A stretch of DNA of 42,500 bases from a virus, in IMG/VR virus record IMGVR_UViG_3300005617_000625, positions 1 to 42,500 of that record. One strand, written 5' to 3'. The position numbers and the translations under genes were made by a program. Positions within the stretch are counted from its first letter, which is position 1, and each line of letters begins with the position of its first letter. This document shows positions 1,016 through 42,500 of the stretch, piece after piece. The notes under the pieces were generated by a model. It saw only the letters and a program-made list of their open reading frames with translations, was not told where the DNA came from and searched no databases.

Positions 1016-1074
1016 ATCGGTCCGCCGATGCGGCCGCTATCAGGCGGCATGACTGGCTATTGCTTCATGCCGCC
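1016..1074. terminator. Hairpin pair at the 3' end of the repressor gene
   Basis: A perfect 10-bp inverted repeat, GGCGGCATGA (1043-1052) and TCATGCCGCC (1065-1074), covers the repressor stop codon. A smaller hairpin, ATCGG/CCGAT, lies at 1016-1029. On the plus strand the large hairpin is followed by GAAGTTTTTATT, so it looks like an intrinsic terminator for plus-strand transcription. On the minus strand no T-run follows. Confidence 0.45.
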
Positions 1075-1442
1075 GAAGTTTTTATTATTTCCTGCAAAAA
1101 GGACTTGTCAGCCCGCAGTTCGGCAATAGCGGCGTCCTTCACTTCGATGATTTTTTCATAGGCTGCTTTCAGCTCTTCGATTACCTCTCCGGTAAGGGGT
1201 TGGCGAGAAGCCGCATTCAGCAACATCTCTCCCTTTCCATCTTCCAACCAGGCGGGGCTCAGAAGGGGGAAGGTTTGGTAAATCTTCTTCAGCTTTGAAA
1301 GCGTTGGCTGTGACCCGCCACTTTCCCAGGAATGAATATTGGCGCCGGACAAACCGGCTTCGCGTCCCATTTCCCGGAGGCCCATTTTCAGGTGCTCCTC
1401 CCGGTAATACTTCAGCCTTTCGGCAAATGTTTTCATTTCCAT
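1065..1442 (-). CDS. XRE/CI-like prophage repressor
   Basis: A 125-residue protein with an N-terminal helix-turn-helix of the XRE family (about residues 18-62, including REMGREAGLSGANIHSWESG). The C-terminal part (about 85-120, AYEKIIEVKDAAIAELRADK) is predicted helical and probably mediates oligomerisation. No LexA-like Ser-Lys protease motif is visible. It lies divergent to the 1630 gene across a region with repeated operator-like sites, and next to int: the classical lysogeny position. It probably represses the early plus-strand promoter and itself. A start two codons later (1436) is equally possible. Confidence 0.85.
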   Translation of the reverse strand: MEMKTFAERLKYYREEHLKMGLREMGREAGLSGANIHSWESGGSQPTLSKLKKIYQTFPLLSPAWLEDGKGEMLLNAASRQPLTGEVIEELKAAYEKIIEVKDAAIAELRADKSFLQEIIKTSAA

Positions 1443-7240: not shown

Positions 7241-8077
7241 ATGAAGATTCCCGCTTTTCAATTTTATCCCGCTGATTGGCGGAAAGACCCGGGTGTACAA
7301 TCATTAACTTACCACGATAGAGGTGTCTGGTTTGAAATTTTATGCCTTATGCATGAGTCCAGCGACCGCGGCAAACTGCTTCTCAATGGGCAACCAATGC
7401 CTACGAAGGCACTTGCCCGGCTCCTGGGAGTAGACATAAGCGTACTGACCAACACCCTCGACACGCTCCTGAGTTTTGGTGTCTGTTCTAAAGAACCGGA
7501 CACAGGAGTGCTGTACAACCGTCGGATGGTAAAAGATGAAGCAATCCGGAAAATTCGCTCCCAAGTGGGTAAAATGGGAGGCAATCCAAAGTTGGTTAGC
7601 AATTTGGTTAAGCAAAATGACAACATCATTACAACCAAAGACCTAACCAAAATACATGTAGATGTAAATAAAGAAGAAGATGAAGAAGAAAAAGAAAAAA
7701 TTTCCCGCATGCGCGCGCATGAGATTCAGGAAGCGCACTTGCTGATCTGCTCCGTTTTTGGGATCACTGAACAGCACCATTACCAATCGTTCGCCGCTAC
7801 CGGGCATTTGGTTATCTGCTTGCAAACCCAAGGACAAATCCAGCATTTTAACAAACAGATTCGGGATTACATCGCCTACAAATCCCTTCTGAAAGAAAAA
7901 AAGCACAGCCTGGATTCCTTTATTGGCAAACCTGAACTGAGTTACCAGGATGGAAAATGGAATTCCGAGGACTGGTCATTAAAACTTTCTGAAGCTAAAA
8001 GAAATGGACAACCACTTGAAAATGAATCAACTACCAAAGTTTACCGATATAACGGAGCTCAAAAACAGCATTCTTAA
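7241..8077 (+). CDS. DnaD-like / DUF1376-like replication initiation protein
   Basis: A 278-residue protein; start taken at 7241 (MKIPAFQFYPADWRKDPGVQ), since the first ten residues from an upstream start at 7211 look non-conserved. The N-terminal 110 residues carry the FYPADW..D..V..L....RGVWFE.L pattern and a winged-helix-like body ending in NRRMVKDEAIRKIRSQVGK, as in phage replisome organisers of the DUF1376/DnaD type. A Glu-rich linker (EEDEEEKEK, near 145) leads to a helical C-terminal domain. It overlaps the DnaB gene by 74 bases. Role: origin recognition and helicase recruitment. Confidence 0.75.
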   Translation: MKIPAFQFYPADWRKDPGVQSLTYHDRGVWFEILCLMHESSDRGKLLLNGQPMPTKALARLLGVDISVLTNTLDTLLSFGVCSKEPDTGVLYNRRMVKDEAIRKIRSQVGKMGGNPKLVSNLVKQNDNIITTKDLTKIHVDVNKEEDEEEKEKISRMRAHEIQEAHLLICSVFGITEQHHYQSFAATGHLVICLQTQGQIQHFNKQIRDYIAYKSLLKEKKHSLDSFIGKPELSYQDGKWNSEDWSLKLSEAKRNGQPLENESTTKVYRYNGAQKQHS

Positions 8078-35650: not shown

Positions 35651-36214
35651 ATGATCAAGCGGAAATTCTTTTTCGACACGGTAAACAAGCTGCTCTTTAA
35701 AGGCAAATTGTCCCCTAGCGCCTGGGTAGGAATGGAATTAATGCTGACGTATTGGGAAGCGAATCCCCGACCGGTGGGTGGACCTCAAGACATTCGCTGG
35801 CTAGCCTATATCCTGGCCACTACGATGCATGAGACGCAGCGCACCTTCCAGCCTATTGAAGAATTCGGCAAAGGGCATGGCAAAAAGTACGGAAAGCCGG
35901 ATCCCCAGAACGGACGTATTTACTACGGAAGGGGTTATTGCCAGATCACCTATCGAGTGAATTACGAGAAGTTCGGCAAGCTATTAGGAATTGACCTGGT
36001 GAACCATCCTGAACTGGCATTAGTAGAAGAATACGCCTTGAAGATTATTTTCATCGGGATGGAAAAGGGGCAGTTTACGGGCCGGAAATTAGCCGACTAT
36101 TTCAATGCCAAAAGCGAGAACTGGTACAAAGCGAGAAGAATAATAAACGGTGATGACTGCGCATCTGCCATTGCCGAGTACGGAAAGGTGTTTTACCAGG
36201 CTTTGCAGGGATGA
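35651..36214 (+). CDS. Endolysin, GH19 chitinase/lysozyme-like
   Basis: A 187-residue muralytic enzyme. TTMHETQRTFQPIEEFG has the HET catalytic Glu (E61) and a second acidic pair (E70, E71). YYGRGYCQITYRVNYEKFGK and LLGIDLVNHPELA are the GH19 substrate-groove signatures; FTGRKLADYFN follows. It hydrolyses peptidoglycan glycan strands to release progeny. No signal peptide is present, so it needs the holin at 37144. It starts the lysis cassette 35651-37677. Confidence 0.9.
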   Translation: MIKRKFFFDTVNKLLFKGKLSPSAWVGMELMLTYWEANPRPVGGPQDIRWLAYILATTMHETQRTFQPIEEFGKGHGKKYGKPDPQNGRIYYGRGYCQITYRVNYEKFGKLLGIDLVNHPELALVEEYALKIIFIGMEKGQFTGRKLADYFNAKSENWYKARRIINGDDCASAIAEYGKVFYQALQG

Positions 36215-36215
36215 A

Positions 36216-36458
36216 ATGGAAAAAGTTAGCCTTGCCGATGAGTATGATCAGTTCATCACCGCCTACGTTCAGCAGTTGGAAGGGCTGGTTTTTATTTTAA
36301 AGTATGAGCTACAGAACCCGACACCTGGTGGACCGGGAGACAACTTCTTCCAGTTGTTGTGGTTGCTCGACGATCTGATGACCAGTGGGGAAAAGATGCG
36401 AATGGATTTCGGGAAGCGGCTGAGAGAACAAATGAAAGGCGACGGGCAACCGGAATGA
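36216..36458 (+). CDS. Small lysis-region protein, unknown
   Basis: An 80-residue, mostly helical protein from ATG 36216 (MEKVSLADEYDQFITAYVQQ). No transmembrane segment or catalytic motif. It begins two bases after the endolysin stop and is part of the lysis cassette. It could regulate lysis timing; no family recognised. Confidence 0.6.
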   Translation: MEKVSLADEYDQFITAYVQQLEGLVFILKYELQNPTPGGPGDNFFQLLWLLDDLMTSGEKMRMDFGKRLREQMKGDGQPE

Positions 36459-36494
36459 AACCTAGTTCTAAGCAGATTAATGAAATGAAAGATT

Positions 36495-36815
36495 GTGGAT
36501 GGCCTTCTGGATGACCGCGAACAATTGCCGCACCGGCTCCAGCACGATACGCTTGGCCCTATGGCCACTTACATCGGATTGGTGAAAGTTATTTTTCGGT
36601 TCGAAGATAAAATGAGTGACGAAGAAATGGTGCTTTTCTTTCGTCACCTGGAAGAAACGGAGAACAAAATCAAGGACCGCAACGCCCGTTTTACCGGCCT
36701 CATCAATCGAGTGCAGGAGATATTGAATCTGATGGTCACCGATCCGGCAGCGGCACTGGAAAAAAGGCTTGAATTGAACAAGATAATGAAGAAGATAAAT
36801 GAGCGAACCCGGTGA
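36495..36815 (+). CDS. Coiled-coil lysis-region protein, unknown
   Basis: A 106-residue protein from GTG 36495; ATG 36561 (MATYIGLVKVIFRFEDKMSD) is a shorter alternative. Mainly helical (EETENKIKDRNARFTGLINR) and without a membrane segment. It is four-base-coupled to the next gene. Function unknown. Confidence 0.55.
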   Translation: MDGLLDDREQLPHRLQHDTLGPMATYIGLVKVIFRFEDKMSDEEMVLFFRHLEETENKIKDRNARFTGLINRVQEILNLMVTDPAAALEKRLELNKIMKKINERTR

Positions 36816-37147
36816 AAGCGTCGCCAGAGAAACCCGAAAAGGAGTGGAGCGAAAGGTGGTGGGGGAAGCTGCTGTTAGGGGGAGGTTCGGTACTGGTAGC
36901 CCTGTTCGTTTATAAAATGGTGAGTGTAGCCAACGATGTAGCGGAAATCCCGGCGATGAAAACCAGAATCAAGGTACTGGAATTGCAAGCAGCTCGGATG
37001 AAGCAGCGCACTGATTACGACTCCATCCGGGTAGTGCTGCTCAGGGAACAGAAGGAAGAAAGCCGGCAACGGAGTGAAAGGTTTGATTCTTCCCTGATAG
37101 AAGGAGATCGCCGGTTTGACAAAGCTTTAATTCGTAAACTTAAATGA
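36812..37147 (+). CDS. Inner-membrane spanin-like protein
   Basis: A 111-residue protein from GTG 36812. One transmembrane helix (about 17-35, GKLLLGGGSVLVALFVYKMV) is followed by a long charged coiled coil (MKTRIKVLELQAARMKQRTD and on). N-in anchored with a periplasmic coiled coil is the architecture of inner-membrane spanin Rz-type proteins. No embedded lipoprotein Rz1 was found. It is ATGA-coupled to the holin-like gene. Confidence 0.55.
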   Translation: MKASPEKPEKEWSERWWGKLLLGGGSVLVALFVYKMVSVANDVAEIPAMKTRIKVLELQAARMKQRTDYDSIRVVLLREQKEESRQRSERFDSSLIEGDRRFDKALIRKLK

Positions 37148-37677
37148 TTATGACCCTTACTAACAAAAGACAAATTATTTTCATTGCCGCGTTGCTCATT
37201 AGTATCCTGATACTGACCACTCGGCTATTTGCTCAGGAACCGGACAGTACTGGCACCGGTGGCCCTACGCCTATTCCAATTTTCACCAGCGTATGGAGTA
37301 TGCTGCTGTTTCTGTTCAACGTGGCGCTGATCCCTTTTTTGGTAGATAAGTTGGCACCGGTGACCTGGAAAAGCGGCACTAAAATACTGGTACTGGTTGG
37401 GCTGTCGGTTGCCGCATCGGTGCTGCAATTGATGAGTGAAGGACGGCTGGAGTTCCGTAATTTAGCTCAGTCAGCCCTTTCCTTGCTAGGCACAATTCAA
37501 ATATATTATAATCTGTTCGTAAAGAAATTTAAACTCGAAGGCCCCAAGGAACAGATTATGGATCAAGCTAAAGCCCAGATCGCACACCAGGTAGATGCAC
37601 TATCCCATTCAGAGGCGAAGGCCATCTTAGACCCGTTAACCCCCGCTGTGATTCAACTTGCGGCTGAGGTGAAATAA
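37144..37677 (+). CDS. Holin-like membrane protein
   Basis: A 177-residue protein with a first hydrophobic helix (IIFIAALLISILILTTRLFA) that may be a signal anchor, then two or three more (VWSMLLFLFNVALIPFLVDK; ILVLVGLSVAASVLQLM), and a cytosolic charged tail (GPKEQIMDQAKAQIAHQVDA). Multi-span small proteins next to an endolysin are usually holins, which release the endolysin at a set time. It is the last gene of the lysis cassette. Confidence 0.6.
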   Translation: MIMTLTNKRQIIFIAALLISILILTTRLFAQEPDSTGTGGPTPIPIFTSVWSMLLFLFNVALIPFLVDKLAPVTWKSGTKILVLVGLSVAASVLQLMSEGRLEFRNLAQSALSLLGTIQIYYNLFVKKFKLEGPKEQIMDQAKAQIAHQVDALSHSEAKAILDPLTPAVIQLAAEVK

Positions 37678-37702
37678 ATACTTAATCGTTAGCAAGTTAT
37701 CG

Positions 37703-37733
37703 TTGCACGCCGCGTATAAATTTTGTATATTTA
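37703..37733 (+). promoter_or_regulatory. Promoter for the HNH-AP2 gene
   Basis: TTG (37703-37705), a 20-base spacer, then TATATTTA (37726-37733), one base from the TAnnTTTG -7 box. It would start a transcript about 115 bases before the ATG at 37853, including the structured leader. An inverted repeat, CGTATAAATTT (37713-37723) with AAATTTATACG (37759-37769), overlaps it and may be an operator. Confidence 0.5.
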
Positions 37734-37739
37734 AACAAG

Positions 37740-37852
37740 GATTTCGCAGTCCCAAAGCAAATTTATACGACATTTACAAAGCCGTTTGGCGTGACTAGTT
37801 GGGTGGTTTGCTACCCTTGCGAAGCTAGAAGCGTTGAACGGTTTTTGTTGTT
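37740..37852 (+). ncRNA. Structured leader of the HNH-AP2 gene
   Basis: AAAGCCGTT (37778-37786) pairs with AACGGTTTT (37837-37845), nine pairs with one G-U. Within it CTAG (37795-37798) pairs with CTAG (37825-37828), and GGGT (37801-37804) pairs with ACCC (37813-37816). This is a nested, tRNA- or group-I-like compact fold ending seven bases before the start codon, so it can occlude translation. No known riboswitch class was recognised. Confidence 0.45.
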
Positions 37853-38542
37853 ATGAAAACAATACAATTAACGAAAGGTCAGGTGGCCTTAGTGGATGAT
37901 GAAGACTTTGAACGGGTGAATCAATTCTATTGGCAAGCTGGATATGAGAAGACAACGCATAAATATTATGCAAAGGGACATGTTAATGGTAAGCCGGTTT
38001 TGATGCACCGGTATATTCTAAGTATGACAGACCCTAAAGTTTTAGTAGACCATCGCTTTCATGACACGCTGGACAACAGAAAAGAGAATTTGCGGGTTTG
38101 CACCAATTCACAAAATAGTGCTAATTCAAAAAAGCAGCAATCTGACCGTTCCAGCAAATTTAAAGGGGTTAGTTGGCACAAAGTAAGGAAGAAATGGTGC
38201 TCTGTAATAGGCCATGGTAAAGCAAGCTTTCATTTAGGGCTTTTTGAAACGCAGGAGGCGGCCGCGTTAGCTTATAATTTAAAGGCTAAAGCGCTATTCG
38301 GCGAATTCGCTTTACTGAATGAACTTACCGAAGAAGAAATGACGATTGCTCTTTCACACCCTCCTAAAATAGAGTCCTCTAAATTTAAGGGGGTGTCTTG
38401 GCATCGGAAGGCACGCAAATGGATGGCACAAATCTCTATAAAGGGACAGCACCATCATTTAGGACTTTTTAGCGATGAAATGCAGGCCGCTAAAGTATAT
38501 AGTGAAGCAAAGGCTGCAACAAAGAGAGCGGAAATCAAATGA
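37853..38542 (+). CDS. Homing-type HNH endonuclease with two AP2 domains
   Basis: A 229-residue protein. Residues about 1-98 carry the HNH fold: LMHRYILSMTDPKVLVDHRF, then DNRKENLRVCTNSQNSANSK. Two AP2-type DNA-binding domains follow, at about 100-158 (SSKFKGVSWHKVRKKWCSVI) and 175-225 (SSKFKGVSWHRKARKWMAQI), nearly repeats of one another. Free-standing HNH-AP2 nucleases are selfish elements in phages that nick target genes of rivals. It has its own promoter and terminator, making it a self-contained insertion after the lysis cassette. Confidence 0.85.
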   Translation: MKTIQLTKGQVALVDDEDFERVNQFYWQAGYEKTTHKYYAKGHVNGKPVLMHRYILSMTDPKVLVDHRFHDTLDNRKENLRVCTNSQNSANSKKQQSDRSSKFKGVSWHKVRKKWCSVIGHGKASFHLGLFETQEAAALAYNLKAKALFGEFALLNELTEEEMTIALSHPPKIESSKFKGVSWHRKARKWMAQISIKGQHHHLGLFSDEMQAAKVYSEAKAATKRAEIK

Positions 38543-38570
38543 TGAGGTGAAAGCGGTTCCCCGCCGGGAT

Positions 38571-38641
38571 AGGTCGGTCCGCCGCAGCGGTTGAGGAAAC
38601 GGAGGCGCTGTGGGCGGTGCGCCGCTGCGACCTCTTTTTTT
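38571..38641 (+). terminator. GC-rich intrinsic terminator after HNH-AP2
   Basis: AGGTCG (38571-38576) and GCAGCGG (38584-38590) pair with CCGCTGC (38622-38628) and the following CGACCT, with a bulge between, and then comes TTTTTTT (38635-38641). It ends the HNH-AP2 transcript. Confidence 0.65.
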
Positions 38642-38731
38642 GTTGCAGTTGGCCGATTAATTCCTGAAATTAGCACCCGCACCCTAATAGAGAAGAGAAT
38701 AGAACGGGGCGGGGTAACAAATCTCATTAGG

Positions 38732-38766
38732 CACCCGGTGAGCGGACGGCTTGCCGGGTGTTTTTT
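38732..38766 (+). terminator. Second intrinsic terminator at the end of the rightward genes
   Basis: CACCCGG (38732-38738) pairs with CCGGGTG (38754-38760), followed by TTTTTT (38761-38766). It stands between the rightward operon and the stop codon of the first convergent minus-strand gene. The stretch 38543-38731 between the two terminators shows no gene. Confidence 0.75.
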
Positions 38767-38989
38767 ATGGCAGTCGCTTCCCCAGCAGCAGCAGATCGAT
38801 AGGATGACAGTGGAGCCAGAAGTAGAAATCTCCTCCAGCTTCTTCTGTCTCCCACTCAATGGGATCCCCATGGCGGGGCGTCCCCATTTGTTTGTTGTAG
38901 GCCCTAATAGCTTGCTCAAACTTCGCCTTGTTGAAACCAGAAACCAAATAAGGAAGGGTTACTTTTTCAGTGGTTTGTTTCTTTATCAT
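38765..38989 (-). CDS. Small protein ending the minus-strand operon, unknown
   Basis: A 74-residue protein (MIKKQTTEKVTLPYLVSGFN), with AKFEQAIRAYNKQMGTPRHG and a C-terminal WLHCHPIDLLLLGKRLP. Its composition is protein-like, unlike a competing plus-strand reading at 38591-39034. It is the last gene of the leftward operon; its stop lies in the T-run of the terminator. No family recognised. Confidence 0.6.
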   Translation of the reverse strand: MIKKQTTEKVTLPYLVSGFNKAKFEQAIRAYNKQMGTPRHGDPIEWETEEAGGDFYFWLHCHPIDLLLLGKRLP

Positions 38990-38999
38990 TGGAGTTGCT

Positions 39000-39362
39000 C
39001 TATTTTAGTCCTAACATTTTTCTCACCGCTTTAGCACTTAGTCCCGTCTTTTTGGCAATGTCTCCGACGGCCATTCCTTGCTCACGTAGCTGCTCAACGG
39101 TTGTGTCCGGTGGCTTTCCTACTGCGTCATCCTGAGGATGCTCAATAGGTCCACGGCTGGGCGGTTTTTCCATCTCCGTGATCGCCTTCATTAGTGTTTC
39201 CCTCGCCCAACTCATCCTCTCCAGCCCGTTAACCTCCATCATCCTGAGGATGCGATTAAAATCACCCGGTGTAAACTTCAGCGTAAAGCGTTCGCTCTTG
39301 ACTTCCTCGGCAGGAAGTGCGCGGTTAATTCCCCGGTTGTTGGCTAAATTTTTTCGTGGCAT
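39000..39362 (-). CDS. DNA-binding protein: RHH-like plus helix-turn-helix
   Basis: A 120-residue protein. Residues about 24-65 (SERFTLKFTPGDFNRILRMM, then EVNGLERMSWARETL) resemble a ribbon-helix-helix as in MobC-type or plasmid regulators. Residues 88-120 (TVEQLREQGMAVGDIAKKTG, LSAKAVRKMLG) are a helix-turn-helix. Its coding region contains two copies of the palindrome TCATCCTGAGGATG and its upstream end a third, suggesting that it binds them. Role: autoregulator or DNA-organising factor of the leftward operon (inference). Confidence 0.65.
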   Translation of the reverse strand: MPRKNLANNRGINRALPAEEVKSERFTLKFTPGDFNRILRMMEVNGLERMSWARETLMKAITEMEKPPSRGPIEHPQDDAVGKPPDTTVEQLREQGMAVGDIAKKTGLSAKAVRKMLGLK

Positions 39363-39382
39363 CCTGCGTCATCCTGAGGATG
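39127..39382. repeat. Three copies of palindromic 14-mer TCATCCTGAGGATG
   Basis: Copies lie at 39127-39140, 39239-39252 and 39369-39382; the first and third extend to GCGTCATCCTGAGGATG. The core CATCCT-G-AGGATG is a perfect inverted repeat around one base. The third copy is just upstream of the DNA-binding protein gene at 39362-39000; the other two are inside it. No other copy was noticed in the window. Confidence 0.75.
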
Positions 39383-39569
39383 TTTTTTGGTTTAACAGTC
39401 GCCTTTTCTCCTTTTCGTCATCGTGAAATATATCGCAGATGACACAATAGCGATGCTCAATGTCGGCAGAGTACCAGGAAGTCTTGCCACAGTTGAGGCA
39501 CTGAATGCCCTGGCATCCGGAGGTAGGACTAGTGACAATACAATAGCCTTTGTCGAGTATCTTTTCCAT
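39369..39569 (-). CDS. Small zinc-ribbon protein
   Basis: A 66-residue protein with two Cys pairs, IQCLNCGKTSWYSA and HRYCVICDIFHDD, a probable zinc ribbon, and a charged C-terminus. Its stop overlaps the third palindromic 14-mer. Coupled by one base to the gene upstream (39799-39569). Function unknown; zinc ribbons of this size often bind nucleic acid. Confidence 0.65.
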   Translation of the reverse strand: MEKILDKGYCIVTSPTSGCQGIQCLNCGKTSWYSADIEHRYCVICDIFHDDEKEKRRLLNQKTSSG

Positions 39570-39799
39570 TAAATCCAGGTTTCCAATATCACCGTATCAT
39601 CTTCGGGCATTCTGGCCAGTTGACTTAAGCCCATCTGAAGCATTGCTTCCCGGATGACCTCCAGATCTGGGCATAGCATTAGAAAACGGTCATCCCGCAC
39701 CACCTCTCCATCGATGATAGCATCGCGCTTGACAATGTAGCTGTCGGGGTAATCTTTCGGGTGATCGTATACTACGTAGATGCGCAGGGGTTTTTCCAT
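39569..39799 (-). CDS. Small alpha/beta protein, unknown
   Basis: A 76-residue acidic protein (MEKPLRIYVVYDHPKDYPDS). The pattern YVVYDHP..YPDSYIVKRDAI, then DRFLMLCPDLEVIREAMLQM, suggests a small alpha/beta fold common in phage accessory genes. It shares one base with each neighbour (39569 and 39799). No family recognised. Confidence 0.65.
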   Translation of the reverse strand: MEKPLRIYVVYDHPKDYPDSYIVKRDAIIDGEVVRDDRFLMLCPDLEVIREAMLQMGLSQLARMPEDDTVILETWI

Positions 39800-40239
39800 T
39801 ATTCTCTTCGATGATGCTTGCCCGGCTTACCGGGAATGATATTCTTTTTGATGTTATCGCTCAAATTAATGAACATCATGGCGAATTGGCCCAGCAGATC
39901 CGTAAAGGTCTCTACCAGGTTATAGGTCGGAGCCATCCGGATCTGGCGCTGTATCGGGTTGGGATGGTCACCACCCACATCCCGAAAGCGAAAGCCTCCC
40001 TTTTGTGGCTCTGGTAGAAGCATCGAATAGGAGGGGGTTAGATGCACCAGATACTCCGTCATTCCTTCCACGTAATAGCCTTCGCCTTCAAAATCTCCCT
40101 GGAGCTTTCCCGTTTTTGGATCCCGGCCTACTACGTCATGCAAGAGGATAATTCCGGCTATATCTTCCCGGATGAGAATGGCTTTGATCTCATCAGCAGC
40201 GGCCCGGAGTTTGGGGGAGTAGTTTAGTTTGTCAGCCAT
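39799..40239 (-). CDS. Unknown accessory protein in the leftward operon
   Basis: A 146-residue protein (MADKLNYSPKLRAAADEIKA). N-terminal region EIKAILIREDIAGIILLHDV reads as an alpha/beta core; middle HLTPSYSMLLPEPQKGGFRF; C-terminal helix ETFTDLLGQFAMMFINLSDN. No domain recognised. One-base overlaps on both sides place it in the operon. Possibly a phage-encoded DNA-metabolism accessory; unproven. Confidence 0.6.
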   Translation of the reverse strand: MADKLNYSPKLRAAADEIKAILIREDIAGIILLHDVVGRDPKTGKLQGDFEGEGYYVEGMTEYLVHLTPSYSMLLPEPQKGGFRFRDVGGDHPNPIQRQIRMAPTYNLVETFTDLLGQFAMMFINLSDNIKKNIIPGKPGKHHRRE

Positions 40240-40538
40240 CAGTTCAGTTTGCTATCCGGGTGAAACCGCTTCATCGCTCCTTTATAGATGTCGTAGATCT
40301 GCTGGAACTGACCACCGGAACATTCAGCCACGTAATGCTGGCGCGCACCACCGGTGGGGCTCTCTTCCGTCAGAATGAACATCACCGACATTTTGCCGGT
40401 CTGCATTCCTCCTTCCAGCATCGCTACCGTCAGTTTGGGAATTTCCTTGGTGTTGGATAAATCTTTCATGTCCTCCAGGATGGGAACGCCTCGGCTGACA
40501 TCAGCCAGGCTTTGAATTTTTACGTCGACGACGATCAT
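40239..40538 (-). CDS. Unknown accessory protein
   Basis: A 99-residue protein (MIVVDVKIQSLADVSRGVPI) with KLTVAMLEGGMQTGKMSVMF and a C-terminal AECSGGQFQQIYDIYKGAMK. The GGMQTGKMS stretch superficially recalls a P-loop but lacks the GxxxxGK spacing. One-base overlap with 40239-39799. No family recognised. Confidence 0.6.
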   Translation of the reverse strand: MIVVDVKIQSLADVSRGVPILEDMKDLSNTKEIPKLTVAMLEGGMQTGKMSVMFILTEESPTGGARQHYVAECSGGQFQQIYDIYKGAMKRFHPDSKLN

Positions 40539-40539
40539 A

Positions 40540-40794
40540 TCAGAATAGGTTTAGTTGTTTACTTTTCTTCGCCCGGTTGAGTATAATGGAATGCAGGCGC
40601 CACCGGGCATCGAATTTGGCATGGCAGCTGCGGCACCTTGGTTTTACCGGCTTTTCCGGCTGGTAATGATCGTGCGTAGCATCAAGCATCTTCGGCTCTG
40701 GCTTCTCTCCACAATCACAGCAGTAGCCATCCGAGTCAATGAAACGGACTTTAGCCGAGTGTTTCTTCCAGGCGGCGGTTGCGTAGTTGGTCAT
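40540..40794 (-). CDS. Small HNH-like zinc protein
   Basis: An 84-residue protein. DGYCCDCGEKPEP, the central LDATHDHYQPEKPV, and CRSCHAKFDARWRL place two CxxC pairs around a D-x-x-H-D-H segment, the layout of compact HNH nucleases. A DNA-nicking or zinc structural role is likely. Small HNH proteins often assist phage packaging, but this one is in the leftward operon, far from terS-terL. Confidence 0.65.
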   Translation of the reverse strand: MTNYATAAWKKHSAKVRFIDSDGYCCDCGEKPEPKMLDATHDHYQPEKPVKPRCRSCHAKFDARWRLHSIILNRAKKSKQLNLF

Positions 40795-40796
40795 AT

Positions 40797-41015
40797 TTAG
40801 TTGAATCCGGTAATAAAATTCCGCATTTGTTGCTGAGTTTGTAAATGCCCACCGGTCAGTAACATTGCCCCTAATCGCATACCGGAATGATTGGCTGTTT
40901 CATCGTGCTTGTTTAAATCCGAGAGCATCGACATAAAGGCATTCGTCAGATCGCCTCGTTCTACGTATTCCAAGGCGCGTTGCTTACACCAGGCTAAATG
41001 TTCTTCTCTAGTCAT
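40797..41015 (-). CDS. Widespread small phage protein (MTREEHLxWCK type)
   Basis: A 72-residue protein, MTREEHLAWCKQRALEYVER, with DLTNAFMSMLSDLNKHDETA and a C-terminal MLLTGGHLQTQQQMRNFITG. This pattern is frequent in phages and prophages of many phyla and is annotated as hypothetical there; I know of no established function. It has a four-base overlap with the gene upstream. Confidence 0.75.
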   Translation of the reverse strand: MTREEHLAWCKQRALEYVERGDLTNAFMSMLSDLNKHDETANHSGMRLGAMLLTGGHLQTQQQMRNFITGFN

Positions 41016-41569
41016 GACGCGCTCCTTTCAGTCCGGCTTTCTCCCAAATGTAAATACCCGTTGGCCACTTCGGTTGCTTTGTCGCGAGCAACCACTATCT
41101 TTCTTACATTTTCCGTTTCTACGTCGGAATAAGTGATTTTATGATGACCGGCTACCAGCCAATCCAATACCGTCAGCAGTAGGATGGTTAATTCGTTAAT
41201 GGAAATGGATTTCTCTACCTCATCCATTTCTTTGTCGGCTTCTACCAATTCAAGCCGGTAGCGGATGGCTTTACGTAATGTCTGCATCTGATCCCGGTTG
41301 ATGGAGATGCCTAATGCCGGGCCTCCCTGTTGTTCATCTGGCCAGTGGGTGAGATAGGCTTCCATAACGAAACTGCCCAGGCTGAAAGCTTTTTGCACTT
41401 CAAAGAAGCTTAGTTTGTGCTGAGTATCTAAGGAGGCTATGTGCTGGTGATACCAGGCGTATACTTCCATAATAGTACGAGCACTGTCGGCGGTGAGAAC
41501 GATACTGCTGTGGTCGTTGAATTCGATCTCACAGGTTTGCTTTTTGGTGGTGTTGGAAAAAGTTTTCAT
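41012..41569 (-). CDS. Unknown protein in the leftward operon
   Basis: A 185-residue, largely helical protein (MKTFSNTTKKQTCEIEFNDH). It has a middle FFEVQKAFSLGSFVMEAYLT and a long C-terminal helix (ELTILLLTVLDWLVAGHHKI). No known domain. Its size makes it, with 40239-39799, the main candidate for an accessory activity of the lysogen. It ends coupled to 41015-40797. Confidence 0.6.
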   Translation of the reverse strand: MKTFSNTTKKQTCEIEFNDHSSIVLTADSARTIMEVYAWYHQHIASLDTQHKLSFFEVQKAFSLGSFVMEAYLTHWPDEQQGGPALGISINRDQMQTLRKAIRYRLELVEADKEMDEVEKSISINELTILLLTVLDWLVAGHHKITYSDVETENVRKIVVARDKATEVANGYLHLGESRTERSAS

Positions 41570-41608
41570 ATGGGGTCTGGGGGTTTTAGTTTATTTGTTG
41601 ATACTTTT

Positions 41609-41977
41609 TTACCAATCCACTTTGAAAGGCATTCGCTCAATGATTCTCTTAGCAATCGGAATGGATAGAATGCGTTCTTTCAGTTCTTCTTTAGTTAAGG
41701 CTTCCTTTACGAAGAAAACCGAGCGGGTTCCGTATCGGGTGTCTAGACAACTGCCCTCGATGGCCATTACCGAATAGCCGCCCTGTTGATAATAAGCAAC
41801 ATCCCCCTTTCGGATTGGATCTTTAGGACTTCGTTTCATGTCGTAGGCGTCAAATGGCAGCATATCCAACCGGAGGTCACGGCTGGATATGGGATAAAGG
41901 GAGTCTCCTTCGGGATTAAAGAGGTAATGCCCGTGTTCTCTTAAGTTAGTTCCAAAGTAATACATCATCGTTTTCAT
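41609..41977 (-). CDS. Unknown protein immediately downstream of integrase
   Basis: A 122-residue protein (MKTMMYYFGTNLREHGHYLF). Start overlaps the integrase stop (ATGA). Segments KGDVAYYQQGGYSVMAIEGS and TRYGTRSVFFVKEALTKEEL suggest a beta-rich domain followed by helices. No family recognised. Coupling to int suggests expression with it. Confidence 0.65.
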   Translation of the reverse strand: MKTMMYYFGTNLREHGHYLFNPEGDSLYPISSRDLRLDMLPFDAYDMKRSPKDPIRKGDVAYYQQGGYSVMAIEGSCLDTRYGTRSVFFVKEALTKEELKERILSIPIAKRIIERMPFKVDW

Positions 41978-42500
41978 CGATTAGCCTTATCAAAGTCTCT
42001 CAATTGGCGGAATGCTTCACTGATCCGTCTCAGTTTGTTGTTTTTGGAGAGGTAGTGCTTACGGAGCACATTCACGGTATTACCTAAGCAGTCTGCAATG
42101 TCCTCCTCGGAGATGTGGTTATCATACCAGTAATTGGCGGCTGTTTTTCTGGCTGTGTGCGTGTTACTGGCTTTACTGATACCGACCATCGCGAATATTT
42201 GCCGTAAGGCTTTATTCATCTCGTTATTATAAGGAACGGGTAAGCCCCCAGGGTATTTTTCGATGATGGCCGCCGCCCGGCTCAACAGGGGAATGTAACA
42301 CACCTGGTTGTAACGCCGGTTTTTCAGTCGCTCGATTCTAATCCAGGCGTTATTTATTGGGTCAACAAAAATGTGTTTCTGGTAGTCGAAATCATAACAT
42401 TCCCGATACCCTAAGCCGGTAGCGCAGCAGAATAGGTAACAGTCGGTTACTTCGCGTAAGTAGGGCGAAGCGAAGTTATACCCTTCCAGTAAACTTACCT
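41974..42500 (-). CDS. int: Tyrosine integrase, C-terminal catalytic part
   Basis: Catalytic domain of the integrase whose N-terminus lies at 704-1. Visible motifs are the box-II H-x-x-R (NTHTARKT), a downstream LGN where LGH is usual, and the nucleophile context RKHYL near the end. The box-I Arg region reads ATGLGYRE instead of ATGLRxSE, so the first Arg is shifted or replaced; CTnDOT-type integrases of this phylum are known to have altered box I. The stop overlaps the start of the 41977-41609 gene (ATGA), so they are co-transcribed. The last 10 bases duplicate bases 1-10. Confidence 0.93.
   Translation of the reverse strand, partial: VSLLEGYNFASPYLREVTDCYLFCCATGLGYRECYDFDYQKHIFVDPINNAWIRIERLKNRRYNQVCYIPLLSRAAAIIEKYPGGLPVPYNNEMNKALRQIFAMVGISKASNTHTARKTAANYWYDNHISEEDIADCLGNTVNVLRKHYLSKNNKLRRISEAFRQLRDFDKANR

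Follow-up and report, generated by a model that had tools for sequence, protein, structure and literature searches.

A putative self-regulated accessory cassette of ten small genes attached to the lysogeny arm of a temperate phage

What do ten small genes packed behind the integrase of a phage contribute to its life? The question is raised by the IMG/VR virus record IMGVR_UViG_3300005617_000625, which was analysed over its whole length of 42,500 bases (the window) and in which ten genes, here named op1 to op10, follow the integrase on the minus strand. A preliminary description of the locus had proposed a role in anti-phage defence or anti-defence. The reading tentatively preferred here is that of a temperate-phage accessory cassette, self-regulated, expressed early or in the lysogen, and attached to the lysogeny arm. 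Since at least three of the genes fall into little-known virus-borne families that tend to travel together, the block is better described as an unstudied accessory cassette than as a recognised defence system. A defence role is possible but less likely than support of host takeover or of DNA or RNA metabolism.

Ten ATG-started open reading frames (ORFs) occupy exactly positions 38765–41977 of the minus strand, all in the integrase direction, and make a convincing predicted operon; the preliminary description had given the same block and the same limits. From op1, the last gene, to op10, neighbouring genes are separated by 10, 6, −1, −1, −1, 1, 2, −4 and 39 bases, a range of −4 to +39 in which negative values are overlaps. 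Product sizes had been put at 76–185 residues, which holds except for three shorter products of 66, 72 and 74 amino acids (aa). Ten large genes from elsewhere in the phage genome served to train the codon scores, with 205 wrong-frame stretches as the null. The named frame scored better than both other same-strand frames in 10/10 ORFs, and the score passed the 95% point of the null in four of the ten (op4, op5, op6 and op9). Conservation in family alignments backs op3, op4 and op8 as genes, while packing and a weak codon bias support op1, op2, op7 and op10.

By sequence similarity, op3, op4 and op8 are assigned to widespread virus-borne families for which no name or description was found. The product of op3 (66 aa; 39369–39569, minus strand, its start overlapping the op4 stop by 1 base) is the zinc ribbon noticed earlier. 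It carries the pattern CxxCGxTSx4Dx4YCxxCxxFH, and its Cys pattern matches 76 IMG/VR viral contigs. The op4 product (76 aa; 39569–39799, minus strand) is similar to its relatives over its full length, with P14, D16, P18, R50, R63, D67, E73 and W75 invariant in the family alignment, and the op4 profile recovered at least 154 viral contigs. Full-length similarity likewise joins op8 (72 aa; 40797–41015, minus strand) to its relatives, with E5, H6, W9, C10, K11, R13, D33 and H37 invariant (48 sequences aligned, identity up to 65%), and this family was found in at least 132 viral contigs; the op4 and op8 counts are lower bounds set by a pattern filter. Structure prediction, recommended in the preliminary description, gave models of high pLDDT: four helices for op8 (97.5) and, for op4 (94), a small domain that is beta-rich apart from a single helix.

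Outside viral contigs, relatives of op4 were found in 11 plasmid records (best E 5e-6; mixed contexts in 9/11 inspected) and those of op8 in two, one of them convincing. Plasmids yielded no op3 and cultured phages no op8. Relatives of the three proteins weakly matched PHROG families (E 0.001–0.02), namely phrog_3794 for op3 relatives, phrog_1312 for an op8 relative and phrog_26051 for an op4 relative. These families have no assigned function, and the window proteins did not match them convincingly (op8 against phrog_1312, E 0.13). A literature search found no paper on the three families or on the op8 peptide string; the terms tried were limited, so this is not proof of absence.

The three families also occur together elsewhere. 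They were detected in other loci with hidden Markov models built in this analysis, and 164 TerL-centred loci (2.43 Mb in total) served as the control. op4 was present in 8/76 op3-centred loci (Fisher P 7.8e-5 versus control) and op3 in 10/77 op4-centred loci (P 7.3e-6), while op8-centred loci held op4 in 5/80 (P 0.003) and op3 in 3/80 (P 0.03); these P values are indicative only, because control and test loci are not matched for habitat or host. Each of the three families was found in 0/164 control loci. The locus sets share some records, and 6/12 pairs of a further set fall in records already counted. Where two or more families were present they lay on the same strand, in 16/16 loci and in 11/12 pairs of that further set. 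In a subset of 50/76 op3 records, selected in part because matches were already known in them, op4 was present in 14 and op8 in two.

Individual loci add to this picture. In locus L198, op3 and op4 are fused in one ORF, and in L335 op3, op8 and op4 all lie within 2.1 kb. An op3-type zinc ribbon at 7567–7998 of L335 is joined to a phrog_23845 domain (E 6.8e-7); in L343 (7684–8001) this domain is apparently a separate gene directly before op8. In L395 op4 is followed directly by op3, and in L274 and L277 op4 lies ahead of a nearby op3. In all three, as in the present phage, the op4–op3 pair stands behind an ORF that resembles a tyrosine recombinase by eye. Other small families recur near op3 relatives, including CxxxCxxCC proteins (YkgJ-like, by eye) and a 'GPGKYD' family, in L198, L204, L207, L208, L209, L213, L216, L221, L224 and others.

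The surroundings of op8 relatives bear on what the cassette might do. The largest nearby ORF was listed in 44 op8 loci, and 20 of these were chosen after reading and then scanned. DNA or RNA metabolism accounted for 11/20, integrases for 2/20, families of unknown role for 2/20 and virion proteins for 0/20, with no match in 5/20, a count biased by the choice of 20/44 after reading. The 11 comprise RecT twice, an SMC-type ATPase, an SbcC-like ATPase, DnaB, PD-(D/E)XK, a polymerase, a primase, replication initiation twice and an RNA-binding protein. An unmatched large protein in L343 has the look of a tail fibre, unconfirmed. The neighbourhoods suggest that op8 relatives favour early phage blocks and not clearly lysogeny. 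As they mainly adjoin DNA replication and recombination genes, expression in early infection fits as well as lysogeny.

None of the ten proteins had a confident match in Pfam, PHROG, NCBIfam or PADLOC; all hits were sub-threshold. PADLOC 2.0.0, with 10/10 proteins scanned, gave at best mad1 for op2 (E 0.0088) and mREase_II for op7 (E 0.017), both weak and partial. The compact HNH-like protein of the preliminary description is op7 (84 aa; 40540–40794, minus strand), a CxxC...CxxCH protein. Its likeness to HNH is weak, with a best PHROG match at E 0.013, zero Pfam matches and no confident HNH profile match. Matches to NapC, CK_II_beta and T2SSF were dismissed as Cys-pattern or low-score noise.

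The remaining genes on the minus strand are op1 (74 aa; 38765–38989), which had no family match in the profile libraries, and four for which no relatives were found, namely op5 (146 aa; 39799–40239), op6 (99 aa; 40239–40538), op9 (185 aa; 41012–41569) and op10 (122 aa; 41609–41977), with a 4-base overlap between its start and the integrase stop. Short peptide patterns found no close relatives of op5 or op9 in viral contigs. No relatives were found of op5 or op6 in plasmids, nor of op2, op5 or op9 in phages. op1, op7 and op10 were searched for in the profile libraries and the loci already collected. Among the recurrent neighbours of op3 and op8 (373 clusters), no distant relative of the seven orphans scored better than E 0.08. 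Genomes from the order of Larkinella terrae contained none of op5 (0/291) or of op4, op9 and op2 (0/281 each), and those from its phylum no op8 (0/395); these negatives carry little weight because they had no positive control and the phage host is not identified.

On this evidence, it is unlikely that the cassette is an anti-phage defence or superinfection-exclusion island expressed in the lysogen, in which some of the seven orphans would sense or block competing phages. It does adjoin the integrase in the same direction, opposing the late genes, and includes what is probably a regulator gene, with several copies of an operator-like site, described below; loci of this kind typically contain small orphans that evolve fast. 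Against this stand the lack of any above-threshold match in PADLOC, Pfam, NCBIfam or PHROG, the lack of a recognisable effector apart from the weak HNH likeness of op7, and the phage DNA-metabolism genes that are the large neighbours of op8 relatives. The defence or anti-defence role first proposed for the locus drew only two weak PADLOC matches and is not supported.

The case for self-regulation of the accessory cassette comes from op2 (120 aa; 39000–39362, minus strand). Many helix–turn–helix (HTH) families agree on about residues 88–117 at its C-terminus, all below their cut-offs (best HTH_7, 17.1 of 23.8 bits, E 0.0059), and the DNA-binding protein reported earlier in the operon is therefore retained as probable. 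A palindrome with the 13-bp core CATCCTCAGGATG occurs in three exact copies spaced 112 and 130 bases apart and nowhere else in the window. Two copies lie inside op2 (39122–39140, core 39128–39140; and 39234–39252, core 39240–39252), and the third (39364–39382, core 39370–39382) is immediately upstream of the op2 ATG. The copies fall in op2 reading phases 0, 2 and 1 and thus encode no shared peptide. No 12-mer occurred three times within 260 bases in any of 300 dinucleotide shuffles, and the 11-base palindrome core was found three times in 3.58 Mb of other loci, each time singly. op2 is the nearest probable DNA-binding gene to the palindromes, which are likely to be its operators.

Two other readings that involve the palindromes were considered. 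In a counter-defence cassette the small proteins would be early anti-CRISPR or anti-restriction proteins, and op2 would repress its own operon in the manner of Aca. This is distinctly unlikely. Small unrelated proteins, a DNA-binding gene and inverted repeats would suit it, and two AcrIF5 entries appear among the weak fold matches of op4 (Z 2.6–2.7). Nevertheless, these entries rank 42 and 44, where Z means little. Moreover, whereas in the Aca case repeats sit in the promoter ahead of the operon, those of the present phage are found towards the 3' end, two falling within op2. It is less probable still that the palindromes serve the phage as a specific site of recombination, packaging or partition, with op2 as a partition-like ribbon–helix–helix (RHH) protein. 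Exact repeats at such spacings, two of them in coding sequence, look less like a promoter than like clustered binding sites, and the record closes as a circle. The window showed no ParA-like gene, though no search aimed at ParA was made, and a plasmid lifestyle is not needed because an integrase and a repressor are present.

Attachment of the putative accessory cassette to the lysogeny arm follows from the closure of the genome. The record has identical 10-base ends (1–10 and 42491–42500), and after deletion of one copy of this terminal repeat the integrase runs as one uninterrupted ORF over the junction; the genome is therefore most probably closed, with a length of about 42,490 bp. The integrase is thus not cut off and continues at 737–1 across the closed end. 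Its C-terminal part occupies 41974–42500 on the minus strand (phrog_1 integrase, E 1.9e-6). The N-terminal part, at 1–737 on the same strand, has Arm-DNA-bind_5 and Phage_int_SAM_5 domains within 3–737 and continues at 42500 once the 10-base terminal repeat is removed. As the genome is closed and the integrase spans the join, the repressor, the integrase and the ten ORFs form, in this order, a single minus-strand lysogeny arm opposing the late genes. The first gene of the arm encodes a CI-like repressor by profile match (1065–1442, minus strand; HTH_19, HTH_3).

A putative repressor control region at 1576–1946 contains TTGTCAAAT half-sites, an inverted repeat at about 1923–1946 (TTGTCAAATATATTTGACAA) and TAnnTTTG boxes. 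This motif, the Bacteroidota −7 box, is given in one report as the −7 consensus derived for Bacteroides fragilis, with the −7 part confirmed in Flavobacterium johnsoniae (PMC7366714). On the minus strand, boxes lie upstream of the repressor at 1589 and 1929. The half-sites and the inverted repeat, spread over 1515–1946, overlap divergent boxes between the repressor and the early genes and are likely to be repressor operators. Within the integrase and the cassette, the minus strand has one box, at 41045 inside op9, and there is none directly before the integrase or op10. The positions of the boxes together with the operator-like repeats favour a single long transcript running from the repressor through the integrase into the cassette, and expression of the cassette in the lysogen is plausible. 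A small plus-strand ORF at 1630–1866, between the repressor and the early genes, has by eye the position of a Cro-like gene.

Several points weigh against the accessory-cassette reading. The window holds no excess of TAnnTTTG (19 seen versus 27.4 expected), and scans for sigma-70 promoters and terminators stayed near chance level, so that the single long transcript stays a prediction. The HTH assignment of op2 is sub-threshold. No Protein Data Bank (PDB) structure matched the op4 or op8 fold below E 0.5 in Foldseek, and the best VIA-align Z values, 4.7 for op4 and 6.8 for op8, are in the range of common arrangements, so that a convincing solved relative emerged for neither. The likeness of op3 to ribosomal protein eL37, which is taken up below, hinges on a short Cys pattern, with L37e scores below the cut-off. 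The functional count of op8 neighbours is biased, as noted. Relatives of op8 sit in replication blocks and those of op4 in plasmids of mixed context, and the position of op4 and op8 in the present lysogeny arm may be incidental. Finally, no relative was found for 7/10 proteins, so that conservation of the whole cassette is not established, and most carriers of op3, op4 or op8 have neither of the other two in the stretches examined. The last two points would suit an ordinary accumulation of unrelated accessory genes behind the integrase without joint function. That explanation is possible but doubtful, given the start–stop overlap over much of the block and the finding that op3, op4 and op8 occur together in other loci more often than in the control.

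If the ten genes do form an accessory cassette, they would be read as the tail of the integrase and repressor transcript, with early synthesis and low-level expression in the lysogen. op2 would dimerise on the three palindromes and limit distal transcription, which would amount to autoregulation. op4 and op3 might act as a pair, in which the zinc ribbon binds nucleic acid, as proposed from the resemblance of its profile to eL37, and op4 is the protein partner. op8 may be a small adaptor made of helices that works with phage DNA replication or recombination and might bind metal through H6, C10, D33 and H37. The net role would be to tune the RNA or DNA metabolism of the host in favour of the phage and not dedicated defence. 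A bolder proposal, to which little credence is given at present, is that op3, op4 and op8 are an undescribed early module found across the phages of many hosts. A zinc-ribbon/partner pair would bind host RNA or the ribosome and, with a helical adaptor, redirect translation or replication; here the module would stand behind the integrase under op2 and three operators, two of them intragenic, and be active in the lysogen as well.

Accessory genes at the border between lysis genes and integrase help to decide the effect of a prophage on its host, and most are unnamed. The present locus draws attention to three small families, each in dozens to more than 100 environmental virus contigs, linked by neighbourhood and a natural fusion, and rare or absent in those cultured phages, plasmids and genomes that were searched. 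In addition, the palindromes point to a possible way for a phage to restrain the distal part of an operon from sites within coding sequence.

The plus strand carries genes for a DnaB-like helicase, the terminase large subunit, a head protease and an endolysin (35651–36214). A free-standing HNH endonuclease at 37853–38542 (phrog_99, E 1.8e-54), probably a homing enzyme, lies between the lysis genes and the cassette. A plus-strand hairpin followed by TTTTTT at 38732–38770 (−26.7 kcal/mol for 38725–38775) divides the late genes from the cassette and is likely to be the terminator of the late transcript opposing it. No close phage relatives were found by DNA similarity of 36000–42500 against phages or by short integrase and terminase peptide patterns against viral contigs; the best terminase matches had 45–58% identity over the best segment. 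Repeats flanking the two intergenic regions indicated no attP. Variants of GCTGCGGCGGACCGACC with 0–3 mismatches occur at 1015, 2058, 3080, 38572 and 38612 (5 seen versus 0.11 expected), all close to the lysogeny arm and its flanks.

Three known systems invite comparison. The op3 family profile finds eL37 (4v4n_Ae) at E 1e-4, and the two share the layout C-x2-C-G ... C-x2-C, whereas op3 has in addition an invariant D and a C-terminal FH. Pfam L37e (PF01907) was not listed for op3, and three relatives scored 16.3–20.1 bits against a gathering score of 27.6. Aca-type autorepressors, of which Aca2 is described as the HTH autorepressor of an anti-CRISPR locus (PMC8434428), resemble op2 as small HTH-like proteins of phage accessory operons with inverted repeats. 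They differ in that the repeats at op2 are found towards the operon's 3' end and within the gene, its HTH match is sub-threshold, and the locus has no recognised anti-CRISPR. The lysogenic-conversion (moron) region of temperate tailed phages lies between the lysis genes and the integrase. Unlike such a region, the present cassette has a first gene overlapping the integrase stop, no recognised promoter of its own, and a content of mostly orphans plus three virus-borne families. It agrees in its genome position, in its orientation opposite to the late genes and behind a late terminator-like hairpin, and in its small genes with no recognised virion role. The phage is temperate, with integrase and repressor, and the cassette stands at the lysis/integrase border opposite to the late genes; as judged from position and content, it is an accessory block of the moron-region type in a complete temperate phage.

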